From positions 186,001 through 250,000 of the forward strand of contig NZ_VUKD01000005.1 of assembly GCF_009193155.1 (NCBI RefSeq): a DNA stretch of 64,000 bases, in the 5' to 3' direction. The notes under the pieces were generated by a model that saw only the letters and a list, made by a program, of their open reading frames with translations, was not told the DNA's origin and made no database searches. This DNA is from Georgenia subflava. Lineage in GTDB: Bacteria; Actinomycetota; Actinomycetes; Actinomycetales; Actinomycetaceae. Shown here one piece after another: positions 43,143 through 62,892 of the stretch. Within the stretch, counting starts at the first letter, position 1. Every line of letters begins with the position of its first letter. The position numbers were made by a program, and so were the translations under genes.

Positions 43143-44327
<1,185 letters not shown>

Positions 44328-48016: not shown

Positions 48017-49972
48017 ATGGACAGGCTCCGGCTCTTCATCAGCACGACCGTGACGAGCATGCTGGTCCTGGCCGGCCTCGTCGCGATCTCGCAGCCGGCG
48101 GCCGCCGCCGAGGAGCGCTACCCGGCGCCGGCCAGCGGCTACTGGGACGTCAACGGGCGCGGCTGGGGCCACGGCATCGGCATGTCCCAGTGGGGCGCTC
48201 TGGGTGCGGCCGAGCAGGGCCAGTCGTACACCCAGATCCTCGACTTCTACTACCCCGGCACCACGAGGAACACCGTTCCCAACTCGAACATCCGGGTCGC
48301 GCTGAGCCAGGACGACTACACCCCGACGGACACGGTCACCCTCGGCGTCCCCACGGGGCAGCGGATGACGATCAAGGACGCAGCCGGGAACGCCATCGTC
48401 TCCGGCGTGGCCGGGCGGTTCACGGTGACCCGCGACAGTGACGGCTTCACCATCGAGCGCCGCGACCGGATCGACGTCAACGAGGCGGACGCCGACCGTG
48501 GGGTGCGGGCGACCTACGAGTCCGCCTCCTCGGAGATCGAGTTCTCCACCGGTGACGGCGTCGCCGTGTTCCCCGTGCAGCGGGAGACCGACGGCACCTG
48601 GTACCGCGGCACGCTCCGACTGGTGGGCAGCGCGGGCGTCGCCGGCGCCTTCGACGTCGTCAACCACCTCCGGCTCGAGGACTACCTCCGCGGCGTGGTC
48701 CCCCGCGAGTCCCCGTCCGCCTGGCCTGCCGAGGCTCTGAAGGCCCAGGCCGTCGCGGCCCGCAGCTACGCGCTGACCGAGAAGAAGGCGGCGCACTTCG
48801 ACACCTGTGACACGACGCAGTGCCAGGTCTACGGCGGGCGCGCGGAGGTCGTCGCCGACGGCGTGGCCTTCGGTGTCCGCTCCAACGAGGCAGCAAGCAC
48901 CGACGCAGCGATCAGCGCCACCGCCGGCCAGGTCCGCTGGTACGCCGGCAAGGTCGCCTTCACCCAGTTCTCCGCCAACAACGGCGGCTTCTCCCGTCAG
49001 GGCCGGGCGTACGGCGCCGAGGTCCCCTACCTGCCGGCGAAGGCAGACCCGTGGACCGGCACCGGCACCGGTGACGCGCGCACCCGGTGGACCGACCGCC
49101 TCGCCGTCAGCACCGTCGCCCAGCAGTGCCCCGACGACGGCTCCCTGCGGACCATGGTCATCACCCGCGACGGCAACGGCGAGCTCGGCGGCCGGATCGT
49201 GCAGGCGCGCCTGGAGTGCTCCACCGGGAACGTCACCCTGAGCCGTCCCGCGTTCGGGATGTACTCGAGCTGGTGGCGCCCCGTCGAGCCGCCGTACGGC
49301 TTCTTCCTCAACGACTCCTGGACCGCGACCGCCAACACGGTCTTCCAGTACGGCAAGCCCGACGACGAGGTCTACATCGGCGACTGGGACGGCGACGGGA
49401 TCGACACCATCGCCATCCGCCGCGGCGCCGAGTTCCACGTGCGCAACTCCAACAGCGGCGGCGCGGCCGACCGGGTCTTCGTCTACGGCAAGCCGGGCGA
49501 CGTCGTCCTCGTCGGCGACTGGAACGGCGACGGCGTCGACACCCTGGCCGTGCGCCGCGGGCCGGAATACCACATCAAGAACTCCGTCGCCCCGGGCAGG
49601 GCGGACCAGGTAGTCGTCTACGGCCGCTCCGGTGACGCCGTCGTCGTGGGCGACTGGGACGGCAACGGCAGCGACACCCTCGCCGTGCGACGCGGGATGG
49701 TCTACCACATCAAGAACTCCATCTCGGCCGGGAACGCCGACCAGGTCGTGCCCTACGGCAAGGCGGCCGACGTCGTCATGGTCGGTGACTGGAACGGCGA
49801 CAGTCGCGACACCCTCGCCGTCCGGCGGGGCCGTGAGTACCACATCAAGAACTCGATGAGCGGAGGCAAGGCCGACCTCGTCCTGGCCTACGGCCGCCCT
49901 GGCGACAAGGTCATCGTCGGCGACTGGAACGGCGACGGCACCGACACGCTCGGCGTGCACCGCACCCCCTGA
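48017..49972 (+). CDS. SpoIID/LytB domain protein with C-terminal five-repeat module
   Basis: A 651-residue secreted protein. It has a signal peptide ending in A-A-A-A, a motif W-G-H-G-I-G-M-S-Q-W-G-A near residue 55, and a SpoIID domain (~residues 215-420) with L-E-D-Y-L-R-G-V-V-P-R-E and W-P-A-E-A-L-K-A-Q-A-V-A-A-R-S-Y-A. SpoIID proteins are lytic transglycosylase-like peptidoglycan enzymes. The last 225 residues are five 45-residue repeats with GDWDGDG-like loops, joined without a linker, the same module as in five neighbouring proteins. Confidence 0.92.
   Translation: MDRLRLFISTTVTSMLVLAGLVAISQPAAAAEERYPAPASGYWDVNGRGWGHGIGMSQWGALGAAEQGQSYTQILDFYYPGTTRNTVPNSNIRVALSQDDYTPTDTVTLGVPTGQRMTIKDAAGNAIVSGVAGRFTVTRDSDGFTIERRDRIDVNEADADRGVRATYESASSEIEFSTGDGVAVFPVQRETDGTWYRGTLRLVGSAGVAGAFDVVNHLRLEDYLRGVVPRESPSAWPAEALKAQAVAARSYALTEKKAAHFDTCDTTQCQVYGGRAEVVADGVAFGVRSNEAASTDAAISATAGQVRWYAGKVAFTQFSANNGGFSRQGRAYGAEVPYLPAKADPWTGTGTGDARTRWTDRLAVSTVAQQCPDDGSLRTMVITRDGNGELGGRIVQARLECSTGNVTLSRPAFGMYSSWWRPVEPPYGFFLNDSWTATANTVFQYGKPDDEVYIGDWDGDGIDTIAIRRGAEFHVRNSNSGGAADRVFVYGKPGDVVLVGDWNGDGVDTLAVRRGPEYHIKNSVAPGRADQVVVYGRSGDAVVVGDWDGNGSDTLAVRRGMVYHIKNSISAGNADQVVPYGKAADVVMVGDWNGDSRDTLAVRRGREYHIKNSMSGGKADLVLAYGRPGDKVIVGDWNGDGTDTLGVHRTP
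49295..49969 (+). repeat. 225-residue five-repeat module, copy A (SpoIID/LytB protein)
   Basis: Exactly 675 bases, five 45-residue units: an N-terminal Y-G-F-F-L-N-D-S-W half-unit equivalent, G-D-W-D-G-D-G-I-D-T and four more acidic loops, then the end G-V-H-R. Consensus of one unit: Y-x-V-K-N-x-x-x-x-G-x-A-D-x-V-x-V-Y-G-R then a G-D-W-x-G-D loop. Confidence 0.9.
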
Positions 49973-50179
49973 CGCACCGGCGCCACGCGGCCGGCCGCGC
50001 GCGTCCGACGCCGGCCCGGTCGCGCCGCACGGCGCCGGTCGGGTCCGAGCCGGACCCGCGGTCGTCCCTTTGCGCGACCGCGGGGCCGGACGCTGGGCAC
50101 CGCGTTCGGCCAGGCCGCGGGCACGTCGGTACTGTGGGGCCGCCGGGCACCGTGCCCGGGCGATCGAAGGGATGTGCCG

Positions 50180-50797
50180 ATGGAGTTCCGTGAGCTGAGC
50201 GTGCCGGGTTCGTGGGAGATCACACCCAGGCTGTTCGGCGACCCGCGCGGCGTGTTCCTCGAGGCGTTCAAGGAGGAGGCGTTCGTCGAGGCGGTCGGGC
50301 ACCCCCTGAACCTCAGGCAAGCCAACTCCTCCGTCTCGGCCGCCGGCGTGGTGCGCGGCGTCCACTTCGCCGACGTGCCGCCGTCCCAGGCCAAGTACGT
50401 CATGTGCCCGCGCGGGGCGGTGCTCGACTTCGTCGTGGATATCCGGGTCGGCTCCCCCACCTTCGGCCGGTGGGACAGCGTGCTCCTCGACGACGTCGAC
50501 CGTCGCGCGATCTACATCTCCGAGGGTCTCGGGCACGCCTTCTGCTCCCTCGAGGACGACTCCACGGTCGTCTACCTGTGCTCGGCTCCCTACGCCCCGG
50601 GCCGTGAGCACGGGGTGCACCCGCTGGACGCGGACGTCGGCATCGAGTGGCCCACCACCGGCCGTGACGGCGCCCCGCTGGAGCTGCTCCTCTCGGACAA
50701 GGACACCGCTGCACCCGGCCTGCTCGAGGCGAAGGAGCAGGGGCTCCTCCCCCGCTACGACGAGGTCCAGGAGCTCCTCGCCTCGCTGCGCGCCTGA
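50180..50797 (+). CDS. rfbC: dTDP-4-dehydrorhamnose 3,5-epimerase
   Basis: A 205-residue cupin-fold epimerase of the dTDP-rhamnose pathway. It has F-G-D-P-R-G-V-F-L-E-A-F, the catalytic V-V-R-G-V-H-F-A and the closing Y-I-S-E-G-L-G-H-A-F. ATG 50180 has a GAAGGGA ribosome site; GTG 50174 is also possible. The downstream GT2 gene begins two bases after the stop, so a rhamnosyl donor and its transferase are co-expressed. Confidence 0.93.
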   Translation: MEFRELSVPGSWEITPRLFGDPRGVFLEAFKEEAFVEAVGHPLNLRQANSSVSAAGVVRGVHFADVPPSQAKYVMCPRGAVLDFVVDIRVGSPTFGRWDSVLLDDVDRRAIYISEGLGHAFCSLEDDSTVVYLCSAPYAPGREHGVHPLDADVGIEWPTTGRDGAPLELLLSDKDTAAPGLLEAKEQGLLPRYDEVQELLASLRA

Positions 50798-50799
50798 GC

Positions 50800-51717
50800 A
50801 TGACCGACGAACCGACGGTCGTCGCCGTCGTGGTGACGCACCGGCCGCGCCCCGAGCTGGTCACCCCGCTGCTGGAGGCGCTCGCCGCACAGTGCGCGCA
50901 CGTCGTCGTGGTGGACAACGGCTCGTCGGCGCAGGCGGTGGCCGACCTGCGGGCGAGCGGCGCCCGCCTCGGCGTCGACGTCGTGGCGCTGGCCAGCAAC
51001 GAGGGCATCGCGCACGCCCAGAACGTCGGCATCGCGCGGGCGCGCGAGCTCGACGCGGACTGGGTCCTGCTCTCCGACCAGGACTCGCTCCCGGCCGCGG
51101 ACATGGTCGAGCAGCTGCTCGCCGGTGCGCGCCGGGCGACCGCACGGGGCGACCGGGTGGCCGCCGTGGGGCCGGTGTCCTCCGACACCCGCTCCAGCAC
51201 CGAGCAGATGGTCTACGTCAGCCGTCGGTGGGGGCCGCGGCGGGCCCGCCCGGACGAGGTGCACGACGGCCTGGTCGACGCGGCGTTCCTCATCGCCTCG
51301 GGCTGCCTGATCGAGGCCGCCGCCCTGGACGAGGTCGGCGGGATGAACGCCGACTGGTTCATCGACCACGTCGACCTGGAGTGGGGGCTGCGCGCACGCC
51401 GGGCGGGCTACGGCCTCTACGCCGTCACCGACGCGCACCTCGACCACGAGCTCGGCGACCGGCTCACCAAGCTCCCAGGCCGCGCGCAGGAGGTCCACGT
51501 CCACTCCCCCGTGCGCACCTACTACCTCACCCGCAACACCGTGCTGCTGATCCGCTCCGGCCTCATGAGCCGTGCCTGGTCCGTCGGCTACGTCGTCTGG
51601 CTGGCGAAGTACGTCGCGTTCAACTCGCTCCTCGCGGCGCCGCGACGACGGCGCATCCCCCTCATGGTCCGCGGCCTGCGCGACGGGCTCCGCGGACGGG
51701 TCGGCCCGCTGCGCTGA
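50800..51717 (+). CDS. glycosyltransferase family 2, rhamnosyltransferase-like
   Basis: A 305-residue GT-A enzyme. V-V-V-D-N-G-S-S near residue 37 and S-D-Q-D-S near residue 93 match the RfbN/RfbF-type rhamnosyltransferase group, and I-D-H-V-D-L-E-W-G-L-R is the usual acceptor-side motif. It is co-transcribed with rfbC, so a rhamnose substrate is likely. It ends in a basic tail with no membrane helix. Confidence 0.9.
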   Translation: MTDEPTVVAVVVTHRPRPELVTPLLEALAAQCAHVVVVDNGSSAQAVADLRASGARLGVDVVALASNEGIAHAQNVGIARARELDADWVLLSDQDSLPAADMVEQLLAGARRATARGDRVAAVGPVSSDTRSSTEQMVYVSRRWGPRRARPDEVHDGLVDAAFLIASGCLIEAAALDEVGGMNADWFIDHVDLEWGLRARRAGYGLYAVTDAHLDHELGDRLTKLPGRAQEVHVHSPVRTYYLTRNTVLLIRSGLMSRAWSVGYVVWLAKYVAFNSLLAAPRRRRIPLMVRGLRDGLRGRVGPLR

Positions 51718-51766
51718 CCGAACCGCCTCCCCCGACCGCCGCCACTGTCCGCCCCCACCGCCGACT

Positions 51767-51814
51767 GACACGCACTGCACGGGTCTGCCGCGGCAGAACG
51801 GTGCGGTTCGTGTC
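51767..51814. terminator. imperfect hairpin terminator after the rhamnosyltransferase
   Basis: An inner TCTGCC-GC-GGCAGA stem is extended outward by paired GCAC/GTGC blocks and GACACG/CGTGTC. It begins 50 bases after the gene. Confidence 0.55.
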
Positions 51815-51870
51815 GCTCACCGGGGTCGCGGGCGCACCCGCCGAGGTCGTTGATGTGGCTTCGGCCCCGG

Positions 51871-51892
51871 GCAACATCTGACAACCGGTGGC
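51871..51892. promoter_or_regulatory. 22-bp motif shared with the GH3 upstream region
   Basis: 20 of 22 bases (GCAACATCTGACAACCGGTG and two more) match the site at 54489-54510. It lies 106 bases before the alpha/beta-hydrolase start. A likely regulator site. Confidence 0.5.
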
Positions 51893-51997
51893 CAATGCCA
51901 CCTCCGCCGCACCACGATGGCCGCGAGCCGGCGCCGACGCCGGCCTGACGACGTCCACCGACGACGACGACGTCACCCCATCCAGGAGAGGCACCTC

Positions 51998-54337
51998 ATG
52001 AGCAGGCCCTTCATCCCTCGCCCAGCCAGGACGGCCCTGACGGCCGCCTGTGTGGGCGCGGTCGTCATCAGCGTCGCCGCGGCACCGGCGTCCGCGGCCC
52101 CGGACCCGATCACGGAGTCCCTGATCGCCGTCCCCGACGTCCAGCCGGTCCCCGAGACCGCCGACAGCCACATGTGGTCCAGCATGGAGCGCGCTCGACT
52201 GCCGTTCGACGTCGCCGACTTCGGGTACGTCGAGGAGGAGTACTTCCTCTCCGGCACCGCCAACGTCTACGACAGCACCGACGACGAGCTGACGGTCACG
52301 CAGGAGGACGTCCCGTACGTCAACAACATCCTGGTGCGCCGTCCCGCCGCCGCGGCCGACTCCTCCGGCGTCGTGCTGGTCGACATCCTCAACGCCTCCA
52401 ACGGGTTCCCCGGCGAGGACCACTGGCGGCGGATGTGGCAGTGGGCGATGGAGGAGGGCCACACCGTCATCGGCCTGACCTCCAAGCCGATCCAGGTCGA
52501 CGCGCTGCAGAACTACGACCCCGAGCGCTACGCGGACCTGACCTGGGACCTCGACGACGGCGACGACGTCGGGCGCGAGCCGATCATCGCGGACCCCGAG
52601 GACCCGAGCAGCTTCGACCCCTTCATGGTGCTCGAGGACGCGGAGGAGGGCCTTGTCTGGGACATCATCACCCAGCTCGGCACCCTGCTCGACGGCGACG
52701 AGGCAGGCTCCGTCCTGGGTGGGCAGACCGCGGAGACGACCCTGCTCATGGGTCAGTCCCAGTCCGGGGTCTACCTGAACACCTACGCCACCCACTTCCA
52801 CGAGCTGCAGGCGGAAGCCAACTACGGCTCCGTGTGGGACGGCTACCTCAACACGGTGGGGGCGGTGATCGAGCGACCGCTGGCACAAGGCACCGAGGAC
52901 GGCTTTGCCACCCTCCCTGGTGCGGAGGTGGCGCTCGACGTCCCGTTCGTCACCGTGACCTCTGAGGGGGACGCCGGCCTGTTCGGGGCCGCCACGCTCG
53001 CCGAGAAGGAGCTTCCCGAGTCCCGGCGGCACTGGCAGGTGCCCGGCACCCCGCACACCGACCTGCTGTCCCCGGTGATCCCGGCGGACGAGGAGATCTA
53101 CCAGGCGGGCCGGCTGCCGAACCTCAACGTGCACGACGAGGCGTTCGTGGACGGCCTCAACCTCTACCCTCTGGAGCCGGCGATCATCGCCGCCGCCGAG
53201 GCCCTCATCGCCTCCGCCCAGGACGGCGCCGAGCTCCCGGCCTCGCAGTGGTTCGACCAGGCCGCGGGCGAGCTCGTCCGTGACGAGGCCGGGAACGTGA
53301 CCGGCGGGGTCCGCTACGGCCTCATCGAGCACCCGCTCGGCCAGTACCTCGGCGCCTCGGCACCGGGCGCGGTCGCGGGGTCCATGGACCTGATGTCCGC
53401 CGAGGAGTTCACCACGACGTACGGCACCCGCGAGGCCTACCTCGAGCAGATGTCGGCGTTCGACGACGGCCAGATCGAGGCCGGGTATCTCACCGAGTAC
53501 GGCGCGGACTACCTCTACGCCGTGGCGAACCTGCTCCTGGACCGCATCGAGTCCGGGGAGCCGGGCGAGGAGCCGGGTGAGCCGGAGGAGCCGGGTGAGC
53601 CGGAGGAGCCGGGTGAGCCGGAGGAGCCGGGTCAGCCCGGGGAGCCGGCGGAACAGCCGTTCGGGTTCTTCCTGAACGACTCGTGGACCGCGAAGGCGAA
53701 CCACGTGTTCATGTACGGCAAGCTCACCGACGAGGTCCTGATCGGGGACTGGGACGGCGACGGCACCGACTCCATCACCGTGCGTCGCGGGAACGTCTTC
53801 TACGTCTCCAACGCCCCCCGCGGTGGGGCGGCCGAGCACGTCTACGTCTACGGCCGCCCCGGCGACACCGTCCTCGTGGGCGACTGGGACGGCGACGGCA
53901 AGGACACCCTCGCCGTGCGACGCGGCGCCGAGTACCACGTCAAGAACAACCTGGCCGGCGGCCCTGCCGACCAGGTCGTGGTCTACGGACGCTCCGGCGA
54001 CCAGGTCGTCGTCGGCGACTGGGACGGCGACAGCGAGGACACCTTCGCAGTGCGCCGAGGTGCGCAGTACTTCGTGAAGGACTCCATCGCCGCGGGCGAG
54101 GCCGACCAGGTCGTCGTCTACGGCCGTGCGAACGACGTCACACTCGCCGGTGACTGGGACGGCGACGACAAGGACACCTTCGCCGTACGGCGTGGGGCGA
54201 CCTACTTCGTCAAGAACTCCATCGCCCCCGGCGAGGCCGACAAGGTCCTCGTCTACGGCCGTGCGAACGACGAGGTCTACGTCGGCGACTGGAACGGCGA
54301 CGGCCAGGACACCCTCGGCGTCCGCAGGGTTCCGTGA
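51998..54337 (+). CDS. secreted alpha/beta-hydrolase with C-terminal five-repeat module
   Basis: A 779-residue secreted protein. The signal peptide ends in A-S-A-A-P. A ~500-residue alpha/beta-hydrolase domain of the PF20091 type follows, with the nucleophile motif M-G-Q-S-Q-S-G-V-Y-L around Ser254. Next is an acidic linker made of E-E-P-G-E-P units (nucleotides ~53561-53655), then the 225-residue five-repeat module. No LPxTG or C-terminal membrane anchor is present. An AGGAGAGG ribosome site precedes the ATG. The natural ester or lactone substrate cannot be read from sequence. Confidence 0.87.
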   Translation: MSRPFIPRPARTALTAACVGAVVISVAAAPASAAPDPITESLIAVPDVQPVPETADSHMWSSMERARLPFDVADFGYVEEEYFLSGTANVYDSTDDELTVTQEDVPYVNNILVRRPAAAADSSGVVLVDILNASNGFPGEDHWRRMWQWAMEEGHTVIGLTSKPIQVDALQNYDPERYADLTWDLDDGDDVGREPIIADPEDPSSFDPFMVLEDAEEGLVWDIITQLGTLLDGDEAGSVLGGQTAETTLLMGQSQSGVYLNTYATHFHELQAEANYGSVWDGYLNTVGAVIERPLAQGTEDGFATLPGAEVALDVPFVTVTSEGDAGLFGAATLAEKELPESRRHWQVPGTPHTDLLSPVIPADEEIYQAGRLPNLNVHDEAFVDGLNLYPLEPAIIAAAEALIASAQDGAELPASQWFDQAAGELVRDEAGNVTGGVRYGLIEHPLGQYLGASAPGAVAGSMDLMSAEEFTTTYGTREAYLEQMSAFDDGQIEAGYLTEYGADYLYAVANLLLDRIESGEPGEEPGEPEEPGEPEEPGEPEEPGQPGEPAEQPFGFFLNDSWTAKANHVFMYGKLTDEVLIGDWDGDGTDSITVRRGNVFYVSNAPRGGAAEHVYVYGRPGDTVLVGDWDGDGKDTLAVRRGAEYHVKNNLAGGPADQVVVYGRSGDQVVVGDWDGDSEDTFAVRRGAQYFVKDSIAAGEADQVVVYGRANDVTLAGDWDGDDKDTFAVRRGATYFVKNSIAPGEADKVLVYGRANDEVYVGDWNGDGQDTLGVRRVP
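53561..53655 (+). repeat. short in-frame repeats encoding a Glu-Pro-Gly linker
   Basis: Three near-identical 18-base units (GAGCCGGAGGAGCCGGGT) and variants encode the E-P-E-E-P-G linker between hydrolase and repeat module. The similar but shorter linkers of the GH3 and 5'-nucleotidase proteins suggest length change by slippage. Confidence 0.8.
53660..54334 (+). repeat. 225-residue five-repeat module, copy B (alpha/beta-hydrolase)
   Basis: 675 bases, five 45-residue units with loops G-D-W-D-G-D-G-T-D-S, -G-K-D-T, -S-E-D-T, -D-K-D-T and G-D-W-N-G-D-G-Q-D-T, ending G-V-R-R-V-P. Confidence 0.92.
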
Positions 54338-54392
54338 CCCGGTAGCACCGGTGCGGGGACCTGTTGCAGGACACCGCAGCACGCCCGCTCCA

Positions 54393-54435
54393 CCGATGAG
54401 GCCCGCACCCGAGTACCGGGTTCGGGCCTCATCGG
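54393..54435. terminator. hairpin terminator after the alpha/beta-hydrolase
   Basis: CCGATGAGGCCCGCACCCG pairs with CGGGTTCGGGCCTCATCGG with one mismatch. The GAGGCCCGCACCC core recurs in the terminators of the next two module genes. Confidence 0.8.
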
Positions 54436-54488
54436 CTGCTCCAAGACTCGTGCTCAGCTCCCCCTCGAAGGCGTCACGGACGCGCAAT

Positions 54489-54510
54489 GCAACATCTGGC
54501 AACCGTTGGC
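54489..54510. promoter_or_regulatory. 22-bp motif shared with the alpha/beta-hydrolase upstream region
   Basis: Inside it, TGGCAACCGTTGGCA is a near-perfect odd-length palindrome, typical of a dimeric repressor site. It lies 150 bases before the GH3 start. Confidence 0.5.
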
Positions 54511-54659
54511 AGTTCCGCTCGGGCTCCCGGGAGAGTGAGCAAGGTCACGTCCGAGGAGGGCCGTGACGTGCCAGCGCCGGGCCACGTCCCGGCGACGGAT
54601 GGACGACGACGTCCGGTCACGGACGCCGTCACCGCCCAGTTCAAAGGAGAACACCCTTC

Positions 54660-57600
54660 ATGACACCCGAACACAGTGGTGCTCGCAGGCGGGGGGCGGC
54701 GCTGCTCGGCGCATCGCTCCCGCTCGCGATGGCACTGACCGGATTCACGGTCGCCGCCCCGGCGGCTGCCCAGACGGACGACGGCGCCCCGGTCGTCGAC
54801 GACATGCGGGTCGAGGGCAAGGAGCTCCTCGAGATCGACGGCGAGCAGTTCCGCGACCTCAACGGCAGCGGCTACCTGGACCCGTACGAGGACTGGCGCC
54901 TGCCGACCGAGGAGCGCGTCCAGGACCTCATCAGCCAGATGTCGCTGCACCAGCAGGCCGGCCTCATGCTCATCGACACCCTCAACGCCGAGTGCATCGA
55001 CGGCGACGTCGCCTCGGTCTCGGACACCGGCAAGGCCTACATCGGCGAGCAGCACATGCACCGGCTGATCTTCCGCAACGTCGTCTCCGACGAGCCCGTG
55101 TGCGGCGAGCCCGGCGGTGGCTTCCGGGCCTCCACCGAGCTGACCCCGGCCGACGCGGCCACCTTCATGAACCGTGTCCAGGAGCTCGCCGAGGCCACTC
55201 CCCTGGGCATCCCGGTGCTGTACAAGTCGAACGCCCGCAACCACATCGACCCGCAGGCGCGGGCCGGCATCAACGAGTCCGCGGGCGCGTTCTCGGCCTT
55301 CCCCAAGGAGGCCGGCATCGCTGCTGCCGCCCTGGGCGAGCAGGCCAAGAGCACCGGCGAGGCCACCGACGGAGACATGTCCGTGGTGGAGGACTTCGCG
55401 GGCGTCATGGCCGACGAGTGGAAGTCCATCGGCCTGCGCGGCATGTACGGCTACATGGCCGACCTGTCCACCGAGCCGCGCTGGTACCGCACGCACGAGA
55501 CGTTCACCGAGGACGCCGACCTGGGCGCCAACATCATGGGCGAGCTCGTCGAGACCCTCCAGGGGCCGGTCGGCGAGGACGGGAACTCCCTCAGCCCTGA
55601 GACCTCGGTCGCGCTGACGATGAAGCACTTCCCCGGAGGTGGCCCTCAGGAGCTGGGCCTGGACCCGCACTACGCGTTCGGCAAGGCCCAGGTCTACCCG
55701 GGCGACCTCTTCGGCTACCACCTCAAGCCGTTCGAGGCGGCCATCGACGCCGGCGTCGCCGCGATCATGCCGTACTACGGCGTGCCGGTGGACGTGACCT
55801 ACGAGGGCGTCGACTACGAGGAGGTCGGCATGGCCTTCTCCGACCAGGTCGTCAACGGTCTCCTCCGCGGCCAGATGGGCTTCGAGGGCTACGTCAACTC
55901 CGACACCGGCATCATCAACGACCGTGCCTGGGGCCTCGAGGACGCGACCATCCCCGAGCGGGTCGCCGCTGCCATCAACAGCGGCACCGACACCCTCTCC
56001 GGCTTCAACAACGTCGCGACGATCACCGACCTGGTCGACGACGGCCTCGTCTCGGCGGACCGTGTGACGGAGGCAGCCGAGCGGCTGCTCGCGCCGATGT
56101 TCGAGATGGGGCTCTTCGAGAACCCCTACGTCGACCCGGAGCACGCAACCGCCACCGTCGGCAGCGACGCGAACCGTGCGGTCGCCCTGGACCTGCAGCG
56201 CAAGTCCGCGGTCCTGCTGCAGAACGACGCCGGCGCCGACGGCGAGTCGGTCCTCCCGCTGGAGGCCGGCTCCGACCTGTACGTCCTCGGCAACATCGGT
56301 GCCGACGCCGCCACCGCCTACGGCTACGACGTCACGGACGGCAACGTCGACGAGGGCGAGACCCGGCCGAGCGCCGAGGGCAGCGACGCCGCCGTCATCT
56401 CGGTGACCGTCAGCAACGTCAACACCAGCACCTACGTGAGCGACGACCCGACCAGCGGCATGAACCCCGAGCACACCAACACCAGCGTGATCGAGGGCTT
56501 CGCCGGGCTGGACGGCAACAGCCCCTACGGTGCCGCCGACATCTGCGTCATCACCGGTGGCGCGGAGGAATGCACAGACAACGGCCTGCGCTTCGGCGGA
56601 TCGCTCCCTTGGGAGTCGAGCATCCTTGACTTCACCGGCATGTCCGGCTCGGAGTCCTGGGAGATCACCCCGTCCCTGGAGACCATCCAGGCCGTGATGG
56701 ACGAAGTCGGTGACGACAACGTCGTCCTCGACATCTACTTCCGCCAGCCCTACGTCCTCGACGAGGCCAGCGGCCTGCGCGACGCCGGAGCCATCCTCGC
56801 GAACTTCGGCAACACCTCCACGGCGCTGCTCGACGTGCTCTCGGGCGAGTTCGCCCCCCAGGGCCGGCTGCCGTTCGCGCTCGCCGGCACTCCCGAGGCC
56901 ATCGTGGAGCAGGACACCGACCGTCCCGGGTACGACGAGACCGCCGACGGGGCGCTCTTCGAGTACGGCCACGGCCTGACCTACGAGGAGACCCCGGAGC
57001 CGGAGGAGCCCACCGAGCCGGGCGTGCCGGCGGACATCCCGTTCGGGTTCTTCCTCAACGACTCCTGGACGACGAAGGCCAACCACGTCTTCATGTACGG
57101 CAAGGTCACGGACGGCGTGCTGATCGGGGACTGGGACGGTGACGGCACCGACTCGATCACGGTCCGCCGCGGGAACGTGTTCTACGTGAACAACGAGCCC
57201 CGTCCCGGTGAGGCCGAGCACGTCTACGTCTACGGCCGCCCCGGTGACACCGTCCTCGTGGGCGACTGGGACGGCGACGGCAAGGACACCCTGGCCGTGC
57301 GGCGCGGCGCCGAGTACCACGTGAAGAACAACCTGGCCGGCGGCCCCGCCGACCAGGTCGTGGTCTACGGCCGCTCCGGCGACCAGGTCGTCGTCGGCGA
57401 CTGGGACGGCGACGAGCTGGACACCTTCGCCGTCAGGCGCGGTGCCCAGTACTTCGTCAAGGACAGCATCGCCCCCGGCGACGCCGACAGGGTCGTCGTG
57501 TACGGCCGGGCCGGGGACATCACCCTCGCCGGCGACTGGGACGGCGACGGCAAGGACACCTTCGCCGTCCGCCGTGGCGCCCAGTACTTCGTCAAGGACA

Positions 57601-57719
57601 GCATCGCCCCCGGCGACGCCGACCGCGTCCTGGTCTACGGCCGGGCCGACGACGAGGTCTACGTCGGTGACTGGAACGGCGACGGCATGGACACCCTCGG
57701 GGTCCGCCGCCTGCCCTGA
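54660..57719 (+). CDS. secreted GH3 family glycoside hydrolase with C-terminal five-repeat module
   Basis: A 1019-residue secreted enzyme. After a signal peptide (residues 1-37) comes the GH3 barrel with V-A-L-T-M-K-H-F-P-G-G-G near residue 322 and the nucleophile Asp415 in Y-V-N-S-D-T-G-I. The alpha/beta sandwich follows (A-V-L-L-Q-N-D, G-R-L-P-F-A-L, E-Y-G-H-G-L-T-Y near residues 510-775). A short P-E-P-E-E-P linker leads to the 225-residue module. GH3 enzymes are beta-glucosidases, xylosidases or N-acetylglucosaminidases; the substrate is unclear. An AAAGGAG site precedes the ATG. Confidence 0.92.
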   Translation: MTPEHSGARRRGAALLGASLPLAMALTGFTVAAPAAAQTDDGAPVVDDMRVEGKELLEIDGEQFRDLNGSGYLDPYEDWRLPTEERVQDLISQMSLHQQAGLMLIDTLNAECIDGDVASVSDTGKAYIGEQHMHRLIFRNVVSDEPVCGEPGGGFRASTELTPADAATFMNRVQELAEATPLGIPVLYKSNARNHIDPQARAGINESAGAFSAFPKEAGIAAAALGEQAKSTGEATDGDMSVVEDFAGVMADEWKSIGLRGMYGYMADLSTEPRWYRTHETFTEDADLGANIMGELVETLQGPVGEDGNSLSPETSVALTMKHFPGGGPQELGLDPHYAFGKAQVYPGDLFGYHLKPFEAAIDAGVAAIMPYYGVPVDVTYEGVDYEEVGMAFSDQVVNGLLRGQMGFEGYVNSDTGIINDRAWGLEDATIPERVAAAINSGTDTLSGFNNVATITDLVDDGLVSADRVTEAAERLLAPMFEMGLFENPYVDPEHATATVGSDANRAVALDLQRKSAVLLQNDAGADGESVLPLEAGSDLYVLGNIGADAATAYGYDVTDGNVDEGETRPSAEGSDAAVISVTVSNVNTSTYVSDDPTSGMNPEHTNTSVIEGFAGLDGNSPYGAADICVITGGAEECTDNGLRFGGSLPWESSILDFTGMSGSESWEITPSLETIQAVMDEVGDDNVVLDIYFRQPYVLDEASGLRDAGAILANFGNTSTALLDVLSGEFAPQGRLPFALAGTPEAIVEQDTDRPGYDETADGALFEYGHGLTYEETPEPEEPTEPGVPADIPFGFFLNDSWTTKANHVFMYGKVTDGVLIGDWDGDGTDSITVRRGNVFYVNNEPRPGEAEHVYVYGRPGDTVLVGDWDGDGKDTLAVRRGAEYHVKNNLAGGPADQVVVYGRSGDQVVVGDWDGDELDTFAVRRGAQYFVKDSIAPGDADRVVVYGRAGDITLAGDWDGDGKDTFAVRRGAQYFVKDSIAPGDADRVLVYGRADDEVYVGDWNGDGMDTLGVRRLP
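57042..57716 (+). repeat. 225-residue five-repeat module, copy C (GH3 enzyme)
   Basis: 675 bases, five 45-residue units. 57303-57461 (159 bases) is identical to 60013-60171 in copy D. Units 4 and 5 are also nearly identical to one another around A-P-G-D-A-D-R. Confidence 0.92.
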
Positions 57720-57752
57720 CCACCGCCGACCAGGCACGACCCAGGAGCACGA

Positions 57753-57791
57753 GCGAGGCCCGCACCCCGACCCACGGGGTGCGGGCCTCGC
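57753..57791. terminator. perfect hairpin terminator after the GH3 gene
   Basis: GCGAGGCCCGCACCCC and its exact complement flank the loop GACCCAC, 33 bases after the stop. Confidence 0.88.
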
Positions 57792-57912
57792 CCCTGCGCT
57801 GCCGGCCCGAGGTCATGCCGACGTCACCGAACGGCCTACCAAACGTCATACGTGCCCGCTACCTTCTGGGGACGCCGTGTGATCCACGGCACACACCCCA
57901 CGAGAGGAAGAC

Positions 57913-60429
57913 ATGCGCGTACGACACGCCGCAGGCGGCATCGCCGTCGCCTGCCTGAGCATCACCCTCGCAGCACCGGCACTGGCGGCGACGGCGCCGC
58001 CGGATCAGCTCGAGCTCACGCTGGTCTCGACGACGGACGTGCACGGGCACGTGTACAACTGGGACTATTTCGCCGGCGCCGAGTACACCGGCGACGACAC
58101 CCTCGGTCTCACCCGTGTCTCGACAACCGTCGATCAGATCCGCGCCGCCAAGGGCGAGGAGTCCGTCGTCGTCCTCGACAACGGCGACGCCATCCAGGGC
58201 ACACCGCTCACCTACTACTACGGTATGGGCGAGGGCGCCCCCGCGGTGCTCGCCGACGAGATGGTCCACCCGATGGCCACCGCGTTCAACGAGATCGGCT
58301 ACGACGCCCAGGTGGTCGGCAACCACGAGTACAACTACGGCCTGGACCTCCTCTCGGCGTACGACGAAGACTTGAACGCGCCGCTGCTCGGGGCGAACGT
58401 CGTGCACGCGGAGGGCCCGAACAAGGGCCTGCCGTACCACGAGCCCTACACCCTGATCGAGCGCACCATCGACGACCAGGACGTCACGGTCGGGGTCATC
58501 GGCCTCGTCACGCCGGGCGTGCGGGTCTGGGACAAGCAGCACGTCGAGGGCGTCCTCGAGTTCCAGGACATGGTCGCCGCCGCGAAGAAGTGGGTGCCGG
58601 AGGTCGAGGCGCTGGCCGACGTGGTCGTCGTCATCGCCCACACCGGCGAGGGCAACGTGCCCGACGAGGGCTACGACCAGTCGCTCCTCCACGAGGACGT
58701 CATCAACAACATCGGCTACCAGGTCCCGGGCATCGACGTGCTCGTCGCCGGGCACTCCCACCAGGACAACCCCGGCAAGGTCTACGAGAACGTCGAGGGC
58801 GGCAAGGTCCTCATGACCCAGCCCTACTACTGGGCGCGCAGCAGCACCGAGGTCACGCTCAACCTCGTGCCCGACGGCGAGGGCTGGCAGGTCGACTGGA
58901 CCGGGGAGAACGCCCCGGCGGCCGTGGCGCACTACGGCCAGGACGTCGCCGAGGACGCCGAGCTGAAGGAGCTGCTCGCCGAGGAGCACCAGACGACTGT
59001 CGACTACGTCAACACCCCGGTGGCGGATTCCGTCACCGAGCTGCCCGCGTCGACCTCGCGCTACGAGGACACGGCGATCATCGACTTCATCAACCACGTC
59101 CAGGAGGAGACCGTCCGCCAGGCCCTGGCAGGCACGGAGCACGCGGACAAGACCGTCATCTCCCAGGCGTCGCCGTTCTCCCGCACCGCCGTCTTCCCCG
59201 AGGGCGAGGTGACGATCCGGGACATCGCCGGTCTGTACATCTACGAGAACACCCTGCGCGGCGCCGAGCTGACCGGTGCCCAGCTCAAGGACTACCTCGA
59301 GTACTCCGCCCGCTACTTCAACCAGGTGGAGCAGGGAGCCGAGTTCGACCCCGAGACGGGGACGAACGCGACCTATCCGGACCGCCCCGACGGCGTCCCG
59401 GACTACAACTACGACGTCATCTCGGGCCTCGAGTACGCCATCGACATCTCCCAGCCGGTGGGCAGCCGCATCGTCGGCCTGTCGCACCCGGACGGGACGC
59501 CGGTGGCCGACGACGACGTGTTCGTCATGGCGGTGAACAACTACCGGCAGAGCGGCGGCGGCGGCTTCCCGCACATCGCCGACGCGCCGGTGGTCTACGA
59601 CGAGCTGCTGGAGATCCGTCAGCTGCTCATCGACTGGGCCGGCAACGAGGGCGAGATCAACCCGGACGACTTCTTCGTGCAGAACTGGGCGCTCATCACC
59701 GAGCCCCTCGAGGAGCCCGGTGAGCCGCAGGAGCCGCCGGCGGAGATCCCCTACGGGTTCTTCCTCAACGACTCCTGGACGACGAAGGCCAACCATGTCT
59801 TCCACTACGGCCGGTTCTCCGACGAGGTCCTCATCGGTGACTGGGACGGTGACGGCACCGACTCGATCACCGTCCGCCGGGGCAACGTCTTCTACGTCTC
59901 CAACGCGCCCCGTGGCGGGGAGGCCGAGCACGTCTACGTCTACGGCCGGCCCGGCGACACCGTCGTGGTGGGTGACTGGGACGGTGACGGGATCGACACC
60001 CTCGCGGTTCGTCGCGGCGCCGAGTACCACGTGAAGAACAACCTGGCCGGCGGCCCCGCCGACCAGGTCGTGGTCTACGGCCGCTCCGGCGACCAGGTCG
60101 TCGTCGGCGACTGGGACGGCGACGAGCTGGACACCTTCGCCGTCAGGCGCGGTGCCCAGTACTTCGTCAAGAACACCATCGCCGCCGGTCAGGCCGACCA
60201 GGTCGTCGTCTACGGCCGGGCCGGGGACATCACCCTGGCGGGCGACTGGGACGCCGACGGCAAGGACACCTTCGCCGTCCGCCGTGGCGCCCAGTACTTC
60301 GTGAAGAACACGATCGCCGCCGGCGAGGCCGACACCGTCCTGGTGTACGGCCGCGCCGGTGACGAGGTCTACGTCGGCGACTGGGACGGCGACGGCTTCG
60401 ACACCCTCGGGGTGCGCCGCCTGCCCTGA
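57913..60429 (+). CDS. secreted 5'-nucleotidase/2',3'-cyclic phosphodiesterase-type enzyme with five-repeat module
   Basis: An 838-residue secreted enzyme. After a signal peptide (residues ~1-27) the metallophosphoesterase domain shows S-T-T-D-V-H-G-H-V-Y-N-W-D, L-D-N-G-D-A-I-Q-G, V-G-N-H-E-Y-N-Y-G, V-I-A-H-T-G and L-V-A-G-H-S-H-Q. The C-terminal nucleotidase domain has Y-E-N-T-L and V-N-N-Y-R-Q-S-G-G-G-G-F. The Y-N-W-D element resembles CpdB/YfkN-type cyclic nucleotide phosphodiesterases. A short E-E-P-G-E-P linker leads to the 225-residue module. It probably releases phosphate and nucleosides outside the cell. Confidence 0.92.
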   Translation: MRVRHAAGGIAVACLSITLAAPALAATAPPDQLELTLVSTTDVHGHVYNWDYFAGAEYTGDDTLGLTRVSTTVDQIRAAKGEESVVVLDNGDAIQGTPLTYYYGMGEGAPAVLADEMVHPMATAFNEIGYDAQVVGNHEYNYGLDLLSAYDEDLNAPLLGANVVHAEGPNKGLPYHEPYTLIERTIDDQDVTVGVIGLVTPGVRVWDKQHVEGVLEFQDMVAAAKKWVPEVEALADVVVVIAHTGEGNVPDEGYDQSLLHEDVINNIGYQVPGIDVLVAGHSHQDNPGKVYENVEGGKVLMTQPYYWARSSTEVTLNLVPDGEGWQVDWTGENAPAAVAHYGQDVAEDAELKELLAEEHQTTVDYVNTPVADSVTELPASTSRYEDTAIIDFINHVQEETVRQALAGTEHADKTVISQASPFSRTAVFPEGEVTIRDIAGLYIYENTLRGAELTGAQLKDYLEYSARYFNQVEQGAEFDPETGTNATYPDRPDGVPDYNYDVISGLEYAIDISQPVGSRIVGLSHPDGTPVADDDVFVMAVNNYRQSGGGGFPHIADAPVVYDELLEIRQLLIDWAGNEGEINPDDFFVQNWALITEPLEEPGEPQEPPAEIPYGFFLNDSWTTKANHVFHYGRFSDEVLIGDWDGDGTDSITVRRGNVFYVSNAPRGGEAEHVYVYGRPGDTVVVGDWDGDGIDTLAVRRGAEYHVKNNLAGGPADQVVVYGRSGDQVVVGDWDGDELDTFAVRRGAQYFVKNTIAAGQADQVVVYGRAGDITLAGDWDADGKDTFAVRRGAQYFVKNTIAAGEADTVLVYGRAGDEVYVGDWDGDGFDTLGVRRLP
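59752..60426 (+). repeat. 225-residue five-repeat module, copy D (5'-nucleotidase)
   Basis: 675 bases, five 45-residue units. One loop has G-D-W-D-A-D-G, an Ala replacing Gly. It shares a 159-base identical block with copy C. Confidence 0.92.
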
Positions 60430-60458
60430 CCGGCGACGCAGTGCACCACCCAGCAATG

Positions 60459-60498
60459 GGCGAGGCCCGCACCCCGAACCCGGGGTGCGGGCCTCGCC
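60459..60498. terminator. perfect bidirectional terminator between convergent module genes
   Basis: GGCGAGGCCCGCACCCCG pairs exactly with CGGGGTGCGGGCCTCGCC around AACC. It lies between the 5'-nucleotidase (+) and the CAP protein (-). Confidence 0.9.
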
Positions 60499-60513
60499 GC
60501 GTCGGTCCGGCGG

Positions 60514-61725
60514 TCAGCCGCAGGAGAAGGCGAACCGCTGGGTGTTGAAGATCTCGCCGTCGACGAGGATCGTGCCCGTCGCGACGAACCCGAGGTCGCG
60601 GTTCAGGATGTTCGCCCGGTGACCCGGTGAGTTCATGTACTCGGTCATCGCGAGGTCGGGCGTGCTCTCGTAGCTCGACCAGAAGATGTTCTCGGCGTAC
60701 CCCGTCCCGCAGCCGGCGGCCCTGGTGTCCGCCCGGAGGACCGCCGCGCTGGCGTGCTCGAACGACGTAGGAGGCTCGTCCGGTGCCGACCGGTCGTTGC
60801 GGTCCATCCACGCCGAGTGGCTCAGCGCCCCGGTGCGCAGGCCGTCCCAGTACCGCAGGGGCGGCACTCCGTTCTGCGCCCGGTAGTCGTTGATCAGCTC
60901 GAACATCCGGCGGTCGTAGCCGTCCTGCGCCCCGGCCACCCGCGCGTCGCGGCGCACGCCGAGGGAGTCGGTGCCGTCGCCGTTCCAGTCCCCCACCATC
61001 GTGGTGTCCGTGCCGCGGCCGTAGACCACCGTGCGGTCGGCCGCCCCGGCGCGGATGGCGTTGGCGATGAAGTACTGCGGCCCGCGCCGCACGGTGAGGG
61101 TGTCGTCGCCGTCGCCGTCGAAGTCCCCGACGTAGACCTGGTCGCCCGCGCGGCCGTAGACGGCCACCTGGTCCGCCCGGCCGGGGGCGATGGAGTTCTT
61201 CACGTGGTACTCGGCGCCGCGCCGTACCGCGAAGGTGTCGTCGCCGTCGCCGTCCCAGTCGCCCACGAGGACGACGTCGGACGCGCGGCCGTAGACGACC
61301 TGCTGGTCGGCCGGGCCGCCGGCGAGGTCGTTCTTCACGTGGTAGACGGCGCCCCGGCGGACCGCGAGCGTGTCCGTGCCGTCGCCGTCCCAGTCGCCGA
61401 CGAGGACCACGTCACCCGGCCTGCCGTAGGTGAAGCGGTGGCTCTCGGGTCCGGAGGAGTTCGCGTTGCGCACGTGGAAGGTCGCGCCGCGACGCACCGC
61501 GAGGGTGTCGGTGCCGTCGCCGTCCCAGTCGCCGACGTAGACCTGGTCCGTCGGCCCGCCGTAGGTGAAGACCGTGTTGGCCTCCGTCGAGAAGGTGTCG
61601 GAGAGGTAGTACGTGCTGCCGGAGCCGCCGACCTCCCCGCCCTTCGCCATCGCGGGCACCGCGGTCGCCCCGGTTGCCAGCAGCGTCGCAGTCGCGACGG
61701 CAGTCACCGCTCGTCTGAGCCTCAT
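60514..61725 (-). CDS. secreted CAP (SCP/PR-1) domain protein with N-terminal five-repeat module
   Basis: A 403-residue secreted protein with reversed order: signal peptide (residues 1-27), then directly the 225-residue module (residues 37-261), then a CAP domain (residues ~270-402) with L-I-N-D-Y-R-A-Q-N-G, the His in L-S-H-S-A-W-M, A-E-N-I and S-P-G-H-R-A-N-I-L. CAP domains are secreted and often bind lipids or glycans. The start was set at the ATG that gives the signal peptide. Confidence 0.9.
   Translation of the reverse strand: MRLRRAVTAVATATLLATGATAVPAMAKGGEVGGSGSTYYLSDTFSTEANTVFTYGGPTDQVYVGDWDGDGTDTLAVRRGATFHVRNANSSGPESHRFTYGRPGDVVLVGDWDGDGTDTLAVRRGAVYHVKNDLAGGPADQQVVYGRASDVVLVGDWDGDGDDTFAVRRGAEYHVKNSIAPGRADQVAVYGRAGDQVYVGDFDGDGDDTLTVRRGPQYFIANAIRAGAADRTVVYGRGTDTTMVGDWNGDGTDSLGVRRDARVAGAQDGYDRRMFELINDYRAQNGVPPLRYWDGLRTGALSHSAWMDRNDRSAPDEPPTSFEHASAAVLRADTRAAGCGTGYAENIFWSSYESTPDLAMTEYMNSPGHRANILNRDLGFVATGTILVDGEIFNTQRFAFSCG
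60943..61617 (-). repeat. 225-residue five-repeat module, copy E (CAP protein)
   Basis: 675 bases, five 45-residue units, opening S-T-Y-Y-L-S-D-T-F in place of G-F-F-L-N-D-S-W. Loops include G-D-F-D-G-D-G, the only one with Phe for Trp. It follows the signal peptide by about 10 residues. Confidence 0.9.
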
Positions 61726-61818
61726 CGTTGCCCGGTCCCCCGATCGTCGTCGCACCGCACGGTCGAGGACGAGCCTACGGTGCACGACGGGCGTCCCGGC
61801 GCCAACGGGCGAGCGGCT

Positions 61819-62892
61819 TCAGTCGAAGAACGCCTCGAAGGCCGTCACGGTCCAGGCCTGCGGCGCGCTCTGGCCGATCCAGATCGCGCCGACTGGGCGC
61901 AGCGGGAAGTCCGCGGACAGCACGGTGCAGGCGATCGTCATGGAGTCCTCGGCGGCGCAGAAGTCGACGGAGAACGGGCCGGTGATGGTGAATATGTCCC
62001 ACATCCGTTCCATCCAGTCGGCCGCCTCGGGTGTGGCCCACCGGCGCAGCCCGATGCCGTCACCCGCGGCCACCGCCGCCACCGCCCGCTCGGCGACCGG
62101 CCGCGCCACCTCGCTGCGTCGCACGCCGATCGTGGTGACTCCTCCGCCGTCCCAGTCCCCCGCCATCGCGCCGTCGGTGGGCCGTCCGTAGATCAGGCGA
62201 ACGTCGGCGTCCCCCGAGCCCAGCTCGTGCTTGAGGAAGTACTCGCGTCCTCGACGCACGGCGAGGGAGTCGTCCCCGTCACCGTCCCAGTCGCCCACCA
62301 GCACCTCGTCCAGCTCGCGACCGTAACCGAGCGAGAACTCGGCAGCACCGGGGGTGAGCGAGTTCCGGAAGTAGTAGAGAGCGCCGCGGCGCACGGCGAG
62401 GGAGTCGGCGCCGTCACCGTCCCAGTCGCCGACCAGCACGTCGTCCGAGTCGTTGCCGTACGCGAACACCGTCTGCGCCGGCCCCGACGTCAGGGAGTTG
62501 CTGATGTGGTAGACGGCGCCCCGGCGCACGGCCAGGGTGTCGACGCCGTCGCCGTCCCAGTCCCCCACCAGCACCTCGTCCCCGGCACGCCCGTAGGTGA
62601 GTGTCACGTGGGCCGGCCCGTCGGTCGCGGCGTTCCTGAGATGGAAGGTGGCGCCACGGCGCACCCCGACGGTGTCCGTGCCGTCGCCGTCCCAGTCACC
62701 GACGAAGGCCTCGTCCGCGTCCCGGCCGTAGGCGAAGGCGATGCCCGACGTCGCGTCCAGGGAGAGGTGGTAGCGCGCACCGATCCCGTCGACCTCGCTG
62801 CCCTTCGCCGACGCGGCGGGGGCCAGCAGCACGGTGGCGGCCAAGAGGGTGGTGGCCAGCACGGAGGCATCGACCGCGCGGATCTTCTTCAT
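61819..62892 (-). CDS. secreted protein consisting mainly of the five-repeat module
   Basis: A 357-residue secreted protein. Signal peptide residues 1-29, then the module from about residue 39 to 261, then a ~95-residue C-terminal region with no recognised fold: helical R-P-V-A-E-R-A-V-A-A-V-A-A-G-D, two cysteines (F-C-A-A and I-A-C-T) that may form a disulfide, and W-I-G-Q-S-A. It has no enzyme domain, so it may act as a stand-alone binding or scaffold protein. GGGGAGG precedes the ATG. Confidence 0.85.
   Translation of the reverse strand: MKKIRAVDASVLATTLLAATVLLAPAASAKGSEVDGIGARYHLSLDATSGIAFAYGRDADEAFVGDWDGDGTDTVGVRRGATFHLRNAATDGPAHVTLTYGRAGDEVLVGDWDGDGVDTLAVRRGAVYHISNSLTSGPAQTVFAYGNDSDDVLVGDWDGDGADSLAVRRGALYYFRNSLTPGAAEFSLGYGRELDEVLVGDWDGDGDDSLAVRRGREYFLKHELGSGDADVRLIYGRPTDGAMAGDWDGGGVTTIGVRRSEVARPVAERAVAAVAAGDGIGLRRWATPEAADWMERMWDIFTITGPFSVDFCAAEDSMTIACTVLSADFPLRPVGAIWIGQSAPQAWTVTAFEAFFD
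62110..62778 (-). repeat. five-repeat module, copy F (module-only protein)
   Basis: Five units; the first is two residues shorter than 45. The last loop is degenerate, G-D-W-D-G-G-G-V-T-T, so it has lost two acidic positions. It is the most divergent copy. Confidence 0.85.

Follow-up and report, generated by a model that had tools for sequence, protein, structure and literature searches.

In the published work that we draw on, and in the parts of it that we cite, the VCBS supercluster of beta-propellers unites VCBS propellers, integrin-like propellers and tachylectins (PMC8023676). Repetitive VCBS propellers differ in blade number within a lineage, and VCBS propellers are typically linked to carbohydrate recognition (PMC9218822). 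One group, the 'VCBS actinolectins', is described as exclusive to actinobacteria and as occurring alone or after a TIM barrel; it had been named, with no member characterised, at the 2021 date of that description (PMC8023676). Tachylectin-2 has five blades with 47-residue repeats (PMC4735018), and tachylectin-like propellers are said to have no Asp motif and to carry GW in loop DA' (PMC8023676). Here we describe a repeat module, predicted to be a five-bladed propeller, that is shared by six proteins encoded in one stretch of 64,000 nucleotides of Georgenia subflava (contig NZ_VUKD01000005.1, positions 186,001 to 250,000; hereafter, the window).

A second kind of known system is EpaU of Enterococcus faecalis, in which a Ser/Thr-rich stretch (32%) precedes a GH25 domain and an OB-like wall-binding domain that varies between strains (PMC13343894). 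Its gene belongs to the gene cluster of the rhamnose-based antigen EPA, and the binding domain of strain V583 co-sediments with wild-type sacculi, but not with those of a mutant lacking the decorations (PMC13343894). We consider it fairly probable that the Georgenia module likewise works as a non-covalent wall binder, holding enzymes on the cell's own, most probably rhamnose-containing, glycopolymer.

All six open reading frames (ORFs) carry five repeats of 45 residues, as a sequence-only reading of the window had proposed, and the units are 45 residues apart in each. The only indel among the six modules is a 2-residue gap near the module start in the last protein (61819-62988), the other five being free of indels as that reading had it, and its placement of the module, C-terminal in four proteins and N-terminal in two, is likewise seen. 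A hydrophobic, signal-peptide-like stretch opens all six proteins, as judged on the Kyte-Doolittle scale with no dedicated predictor. In none of them did we find an LPXTG motif in the last 60 residues or a 19-mer scoring above 1.33 on the same scale beyond residue 60, which agrees with the earlier statement that sortase and membrane anchors are lacking. Two of the earlier names need correcting. The protein called 'module-only' carries a further tail of about 96 residues that has no Pfam match, the only Pfam signal in this protein being a sub-threshold FG-GAP_3 match inside the module; and the '5'-nucleotidase' has as its best model a 2',3'-cyclic-nucleotide 2'-phosphodiesterase/3'-nucleotidase, at 341.5 bits below the cut-off of 486.

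Across the whole genome (4.32 Mb in 11 contigs, 98.7% complete) there are 24 copies of the module in 24 ORFs, with five units in every copy and a spacing of exactly 45 in 92 of the 96 unit intervals. Repetition of this kind lies far beyond chance. Ten of the copies lie within about 60 kb (contig C7, 235-294 kb), around and past the end of the window. Since blades at the same position in different proteins of this genome are more alike (65%) than blades within one module (54%), it was whole modules that were copied. This argument is valid for the Georgenia genome only: in a wider set of 81 modules the two values are about equal (53% and 54%, with 48% for different positions between proteins). 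One protein on contig C7, with BNR_4 and LGFP domains (L039:6078-6755), has a fifth blade that finishes in unrelated residues, GRRRNYNRADINP, with the last strand missing; decay or a frameshift is a possible cause.

The structure prediction, which had been set beforehand as a test of the propeller, was made with AlphaFold2 for the copy at 53657-54334, using 81 sequences (six from the window and 75 from related loci; near-copies and four short sequences were dropped). It gives a confident fold of 20 strands in five sets of four (mean predicted local distance difference test score, pLDDT, 97.2; predicted template modelling score, pTM, 0.91). A Foldseek comparison against the PDB returns ten matches at E <=0.001, with query template modelling scores of 0.41-0.50. 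These are led by KICSTOR chains (best 2.8e-5), which are presumably FG-GAP propellers, and further matches include an Agrocybe lectin (4.6e-4), a BBSome chain (6.7e-4), and PAL and PVL (7.1e-4). The model and the propeller matches thus point to four-stranded antiparallel blades, as in VCBS and FG-GAP proteins. An earlier parallel with tachylectin-2 holds for the number and length of the blades; tachylectin is, however, named in none of the 50 structures among the Foldseek matches listed, and the nearest lectins are the fungal PVL group.

The consensus of 405 blades from the 81 modules reads roughly xVLVGDWDGDGxDTLAVRRGNxYxVKNSxxxGxADxVxxYGRxGD. Conservation along the blade is highest at Trp 7, Arg 18, Arg 19, Asn 27, Tyr 40, Arg 42 and Asp 45. 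A DxDxDG loop lies between strands A and B, and loop DA' reads Y-G-R-x-x-D, the residue following the loop's G being R in 66% of blades. The earlier comparison of this motif to calcium loops stands in that D-x-D-G-D-G-x-D fits DxDxDG, but the last Asp is at position 8, not at position 9 as in the integrin loop. In a second test that had been set beforehand and that the module likewise withstood, no Pfam family attains its cut-off over the module (the best, PF13517 FG-GAP_3, reaches 22.2 bits in the genome and 21.7 in the window, against 26.9), and no NCBIfam model covers more than 6 of the 81 modules at E <=0.01 (best 5.6e-7, PA5033_fam, 4 members). Among solved structures no relative was found by sequence; the sole match, a profilin (E 0.067), was discarded as chance. 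Going by predicted fold and Asp motif, the module is a five-bladed propeller of the VCBS superfamily.

Strands A and B at the C-terminus and strands C and D at the N-terminus complement each other to one exact 45-residue blade, from which we infer that the five blades would close into a ring. If the module is a ring, circular shifts are to be expected, and shifts of register do occur. A Clostridiales protein (L114:1840-3204) has two five-blade modules in tandem, both beginning at strand B; AlphaFold2 on this shifted form, with three sequences only, reached a pLDDT of 51.8 and a pTM of 0.46. A phage endolysin (locus L129), discussed below, has five of each strand in the order A to D, as counted by eye. 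Within it the unit profile scores four units clearly, at 26-62 bits, and picks up a partial one at each end (2.7 and 4.0 bits), as a shifted register would give.

A scan of genome contigs found at least 358 relatives of the module, the best 80 of which were examined as 78 loci. These include actinobacteria (Georgenia, Oceanitalea, Actinotignum, Actinomyces, Cellulomonas, Bifidobacterium, Geodermatophilaceae, Acidimicrobiia and others) and Bacillota (Clostridiales, Faecalicatena orotica, Scatomonas and Enterococcus asini). In the draw from the family of Georgenia 28 of 101 genomes contain a module match, and in the draw from its order 34 of 198 do; one window module, searched against the PLSDB plasmids, had no match there. 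In loci L041-L128, a redundant set that contains related strains and one copy from the Georgenia genome itself (L119), the unit profile delimits 107 clusters: 97 of five units, six of four, two of one, and one each of two and of ten. Two of the four-unit clusters are truncated, L053 by the locus edge and L095 by masked bases, beyond which its second piece forms the two-unit cluster. The others (L103, L105, L117 and L126) are genuine four-unit modules; L103 and L126 have a different register at both ends, and we dropped the idea that they are circularly permuted five-blade modules when a recount gave four blades each. Of the one-unit clusters, L089 meets a contig end and L125 is a true single blade (L125:2393-3256, reverse strand), followed by other sequence and adjoining a five-blade gene; a remnant and a single-blade oligomer are candidate readings. 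Five blades are thus the rule, but not a law.

We now turn to the proteins in which the module is found. The 18 copies outside the window are joined to Amidase_2 (2), M23 with SH3, M15_4, GH3 (2), a nucleotidase, CAP, GmrSD_C, Excalibur, AMIN-like, DUF3152, beta-helix, PKD/LamG (2), GSDH, and BNR_4 with LGFP, with one copy left without a family. Peptidoglycan-acting hosts (SpoIID, Amidase_2 (2), M23 or M15_4) make up 5 of the 24 in the genome. Among 86 five-unit host ORFs, the module lies at most 25 residues from the C-terminus in 67, is N-terminal in 13 and internal in 6; no LPXTG motif follows the module in any of the 86, most of which end at the module. Without ten that were mostly near-copies, 76 partner segments from these ORFs match 65 Pfam families (at 1e-4), some of which overlap. 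Counted from the best 25 of the 65, the leading families are Metallophos (8), subtilase, Amidase_2 and CAP (5 each), with GH25 (3), SpoIID (3) and NLPC_P60 (2) as further partners; of these, Amidase_2, GH25, SpoIID and NLPC_P60 act on peptidoglycan. The module thus resembles wall-binding domains in standing at the ends of many unrelated surface enzymes that have no sortase motif.

Sortase (PF04203) is absent from the Georgenia subflava genome, the only such case among the 95 good genomes of the family draw; 99 of all 101 have it. Phage lysins have binding domains for the host wall, and the module is used in this way in one clear case: on viral contig IMGVR_UViG_3300027784_000086 (L129), a 408-residue endolysin (PHROG 1493, E 4.7e-20, no Pfam family), with portal and prohead protease genes downstream, has the module as its C-terminal part at 39-42% identity. 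A second, weaker case (L133) has Amidase_2 followed by two or three weak units, and the other four of the six viral matches give no clear lysin. In INPHARED (50,697 records) neither one window module nor the L129 module had a match, and PHROG yielded weak matches for three window modules (2.1e-4 to 0.006), each of unknown function. Given the partner enzymes, the sortase-less genome and the phage endolysin, we are rather confident that the module binds the wall in general.

Which part of the wall it might bind is suggested by rhamnose genes. In the window, rmlC sits between the SpoIID::module gene, 201 bases away, and the other five module genes. Treating genomes as independent, with kinship uncorrected throughout, we find rmlC in 28/28 module genomes of the family draw versus 38/73 others (p 7.8e-7), and in 33/34 versus 108/164 of the order draw (p 1e-4). 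RmlC (PF00908) matches form a high-score class (over about 169 bits) and a low-score one (under about 143 bits), and in both draws matches of the latter often lie in open frames of 470-560 amino acids. The high-score class, which was defined after the scores were known, occurs in 27/28 module genomes and 19/73 others of the family draw (p 3.3e-11), or, by genus, in 10/11 versus 7/25 (p 7.6e-4). Conversely, the galactofuranose gene GLF occurs in 1/28 module genomes versus 38/73 others (p 2.1e-6). The two genes themselves tend to exclude each other, GLF being present in 7/46 high-class rmlC genomes versus 32/55 others, as if the family were split into two wall types. All 12 named module genomes that were searched have rmlC, two of them in the low class.

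The module also tends to lie near rmlC. Within the family, five genomes of Georgenia's own genus have the two 127-1225 bp apart; the separation is 0.3-1.5 kb in four g8 genomes and 2.3 kb in a g99 genome, and 11 genomes from seven further genera show 12-39 kb. When each of ten genera is represented by its worst genome, the combined p value is 7e-4, or 0.04 without the three closest genera. This set leaves aside G199, G248 and G213 (other contig), G235, G256 and G273, and also G052 (weak match), and its module numbers are match counts, of which some are split and others are lower bounds. Outside the family there are 31 module genomes, 28 of them with a listed rmlC place (G011 and G077 have rmlC, its place not being among the matches listed, and G119 is without it); 11 of the 28, from five families, have a module within 20 kb of rmlC versus 0.54 expected (Poisson 1.9e-11, again uncorrected for kinship). 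Among the named genomes, Flaviflexus, Actinotignum timonense, Neoactinobaculum and Demequina pelophila share their rmlC places with draw genomes G260, G256, G221 and G103, while rmlC and module have different contig numbers in the remaining five and in Demequina and apparently lie apart there. In Geodermatophilaceae URHA0031 the module is confirmed in a joint region with rmlC of about 7 kb.

We compared gene order in 18 regions picked for a module near rmlC (for one, G043, the module part only). The window order of rmlA, rmlD (reverse), SpoIID::module, rmlC and glycosyltransferase family 2 recurs in three genomes of the same genus (G240, G278, G261), and the same five genes stand together in a different order in G224 (g99). 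In another family, G063 and G189 have rmlA, SpoIID::module, a second module gene (reverse), rmlC and the glycosyltransferase; rmlD was not found in these two regions. Two families thus have a SpoIID::module gene grouped with rmlA, rmlC and a glycosyltransferase gene. Matches to the rmlD-type gene across the regions have 39-83% identity, mostly next to other rml genes. SpoIID-like genes (27-39% identity) lie near rml genes in G023, G001 and G004, no units being found in G004, and Amidase_2::module proteins do so in G268, G137 and G229 (g8) and in G171. Bifidobacterium primatium has an alpha-L-rhamnosidase::module gene at a distance of about 10 kb from an rmlC-type gene of the low class. An ABC-2 permease gene separates the two, a further module gene lies beyond, and the module is confirmed in the joint region.

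The other distant locus is that of E. asini, where the joint rmlC-module region spans 15 kb and the module is confirmed. It is a run of 14 same-strand ORFs with rmlA (partial, assigned by sequence), rmlC, an rmlB-type gene, rmlD, a UDP-sugar dehydrogenase, an ABC-2 permease and ATPase, glycosyltransferases, an unassigned 613-residue ORF, YfhO, a GH25::module gene, an LPG_synthase_TM protein and a further glycosyltransferase. The GH25::module protein has 34% Ser/Thr ahead of its GH25 domain.

Our explanation, which we hold as a whole to be fairly probable, is that the module would be a closed five-bladed VCBS/FG-GAP propeller acting as a non-covalent wall-binding domain. The cell's own wall glycopolymer would retain secreted enzymes that bear the module at either end; this polymer is most probably a polysaccharide that contains rhamnose and is the product of the neighbouring rml locus. 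With five near-equivalent blades there would be five like binding sites, and hence avidity, and a metal, probably bound in the Asp-rich AB loops, would stiffen each blade. The partners, the one phage endolysin and the rml link support the earlier proposal of a propeller that holds diverse enzymes on the wall or on a shared glycan. That the ligand is a rhamnose-containing polymer seems probable to us, if by a modest measure.

Several observations weigh against this explanation. The p values above ignore kinship, and the proximity counts lack an unrelated control gene. By genus, the avoidance of GLF does not hold (3/11 versus 16/25, p 0.07). In the family draw, 19 of the 46 high-class rmlC genomes have no module, and outside the family no module was found up to 20 kb from rmlC in 17 of the 28 genomes; in 16 of these the module is on a separate contig, and in one it is 70 kb away. 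One of the 11 near cases, G004, depends on a match that is weak (1.4e-4) and was not recovered by the unit profile, and the matches in families f2, f4, f5 and f7 are divergent, with 4-6 units mostly of 10-50 bits; they may belong to the wider VCBS propellers. There is only one clear phage endolysin. Since 27 of the 28 genomes with a module keep sortase, the module is no simple sortase substitute, and we rejected the idea that it replaces sortase generally. Finally, EpaU binds teichoic-acid-like decorations, not bare rhamnan (PMC13343894), and the ligand of the module could therefore also be a decoration.

Some of these points would equally suit a wall-binding domain whose ligand is peptidoglycan or another glycopolymer, the rml link then reflecting wall type or an old SpoIID synteny. 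The high-class rmlC genomes without a module and the 17 genomes without proximity speak for such a ligand, as do the partners and the endolysin, which suit any wall ligand, and the closest lectins by fold, which bind N-acetylglucosamine, going by their PDB titles. We nevertheless regard it as unlikely, given that module presence tracks rmlC and avoids GLF in the family draw, and that proximity to rml genes recurs with different hosts: SpoIID, Amidase_2, GH25 and rhamnosidase. It is less likely still that the module binds outside glycans (of plants, hosts or other microbes) as an adhesin or carbohydrate-binding module and so brings enzymes to food. The GH3, BNR_4, beta-helix and rhamnosidase partners, and the typical link of VCBS propellers to carbohydrate recognition (PMC9218822), would fit such a role, but peptidoglycan hydrolases, the M15_4 peptidase, nucleotidases and CAP are also among the partners, and the phage endolysin and the rml linkage argue against it. 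A calcium-stiffened structural or oligomerising cap, shielding secreted enzymes and binding nothing on the wall, would agree with the retention of D or N at Asp-loop positions 1, 3, 5 and 8 in 361 of 400 ungapped blades, but is very improbable, as it leaves the endolysin fusion, the rml association and the C-terminal use in an EpaU-like GH25 protein unexplained.

If wall binding to a rhamnose-containing glycopolymer is right, hundreds of unplaced surface enzymes of actinobacteria and some Bacillota (at least 358 relatives) would gain a location and a docking partner, VCBS propellers would gain a testable self-glycan ligand, and sortase-free display in Georgenia subflava would be explained. Rhamnose wall polysaccharides might also be tagged or probed with the module, and the E. 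faecalis EpaU sacculus assay renders the question of its binding directly testable. More tentatively, and with rather less assurance, we can imagine a general anchoring system of rhamnose-walled Gram-positives, in which the propeller reads the rhamnose polysaccharide and docks the whole secretome, was swapped into the enterococcal EpaU slot, was borrowed by phage lysins, and outlived the complete loss of sortase in Georgenia subflava.

Table 1. Module genes of the window, their parts and the adjoining rml genes (positions within the window).
Feature	Position	Strand	Basis or remark
Phosphomannose isomerase	43143..44456	-	PF20511 6.4e-28
rmlA-type nucleotidyl transferase	44371..45258	+	PF00483 7.5e-75
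rmlD-type reductase (putative, by sequence and position)	46981..47829	-	best match of an ORF in 15/18 relatives' regions
SpoIID/LytB::module ORF	48017-49972	+	five 45-residue units
Signal-peptide-like start and SpoIID/LytB domain	48017..49291	+	PF08486 7.5e-28; TIGR02669 5.3e-55
Five-blade module, C-terminal, SpoIID/LytB protein	49292..49969	+	five units, spacing 45
rmlC, dTDP-4-dehydrorhamnose 3,5-epimerase	50174..50797	+	PF00908 2e-57; genome's sole match
Glycosyltransferase family 2	50800..51717	+	PF00535 6.5e-10
Abhydrolase_10::module ORF	51917-54337	+	five 45-residue units
Signal-peptide-like start and alpha/beta hydrolase (Abhydrolase_10)	51917..53656	+	PF20091 9.3e-108
Five-blade module, C-terminal, Abhydrolase_10 protein	53657..54334	+	five units; copy modelled by AlphaFold2
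GH3::module ORF	54660-57719	+	five 45-residue units
Signal-peptide-like start and GH3 domains	54660..57038	+	PF00933 2.9e-30; PF01915 2e-10
Five-blade module, C-terminal, GH3 protein	57039..57716	+	five units, spacing 45
Cyclic-nucleotide phosphodiesterase/nucleotidase::module ORF	57913-60429	+	five 45-residue units
Signal-peptide-like start and metallophosphoesterase/nucleotidase	57913..59748	+	PF02872 2.7e-27; PF00149 6.1e-6; NF006938 9.1e-102
Five-blade module, C-terminal, cyclic-nucleotide phosphodiesterase/nucleotidase protein	59749..60426	+	five units, spacing 45
module::CAP ORF	60514-61785	-	five 45-residue units
CAP domain, C-terminal of module	60514..60942	-	PF00188 2.5e-9
Five-blade module, N-terminal, CAP protein	60943..61620	-	five units; FG-GAP_3 21.7 bits, under cut-off
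Last module protein ORF	61819-62988	-	five 45-residue units; likelier start ATG at 62892
C-terminal tail of about 96 residues, last module protein	61819..62109	-	no Pfam match
Five-blade module, N-terminal, last protein	62110..62787	-	five units; 2-residue gap near module start

It remains to set the module beside the systems with which we began. With the VCBS supercluster, as described in the parts of the literature cited, it shares four-stranded blades (predicted), DxDxDG in loop AB, secretion, and PVL lectins among its Foldseek neighbours; it differs in having mostly a fixed number of five 45-residue blades, in falling under the Pfam cut-off, and in being fused to many enzyme types. The 'VCBS actinolectins' are, like many of its hosts, actinobacterial secreted propellers of the same supercluster, but on their published description the module is set apart by its many partners and by its occurrence in Bacillota as well (E. 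asini, F. orotica, Clostridiales). Tachylectin-2 has five short blades as the module does (of 45 residues in the latter), whereas the module keeps the Asp motif and has Y-G-R-x-x-D, not GW, in loop DA'.

The folds of LysM, SH3b, WXL, CWB1/2, SLH and CW-7 we take to be unrelated to that of the module. These domains resemble it in attaching secreted proteins non-covalently to the wall, and neither 'propeller' nor 'FG-GAP' occurs in the text of the review that covers them (PMC5817068). At the level of titles and opening lines of abstracts, we found no published five-blade wall anchor tied to rhamnose genes. Thus, the fold is of a known kind, and a five-blade wall anchor tied to rhamnose genes is a newly proposed role.

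The closest functional parallel is EpaU. In the E. asini protein the module is likewise C-terminal in a GH25 protein with a Ser/Thr-rich N-terminus, encoded in a rhamnose-polysaccharide cluster; EpaU has OB-like repeats at this place, whereas the module has a predicted all-strand, propeller-like fold. Recognition of EPA decorations by EpaU has been shown experimentally (PMC13343894), whereas binding by the module is our inference. By analogy, we take the E. asini protein as a natural domain swap, in which the module would occupy the slot of the EpaU binding domain.

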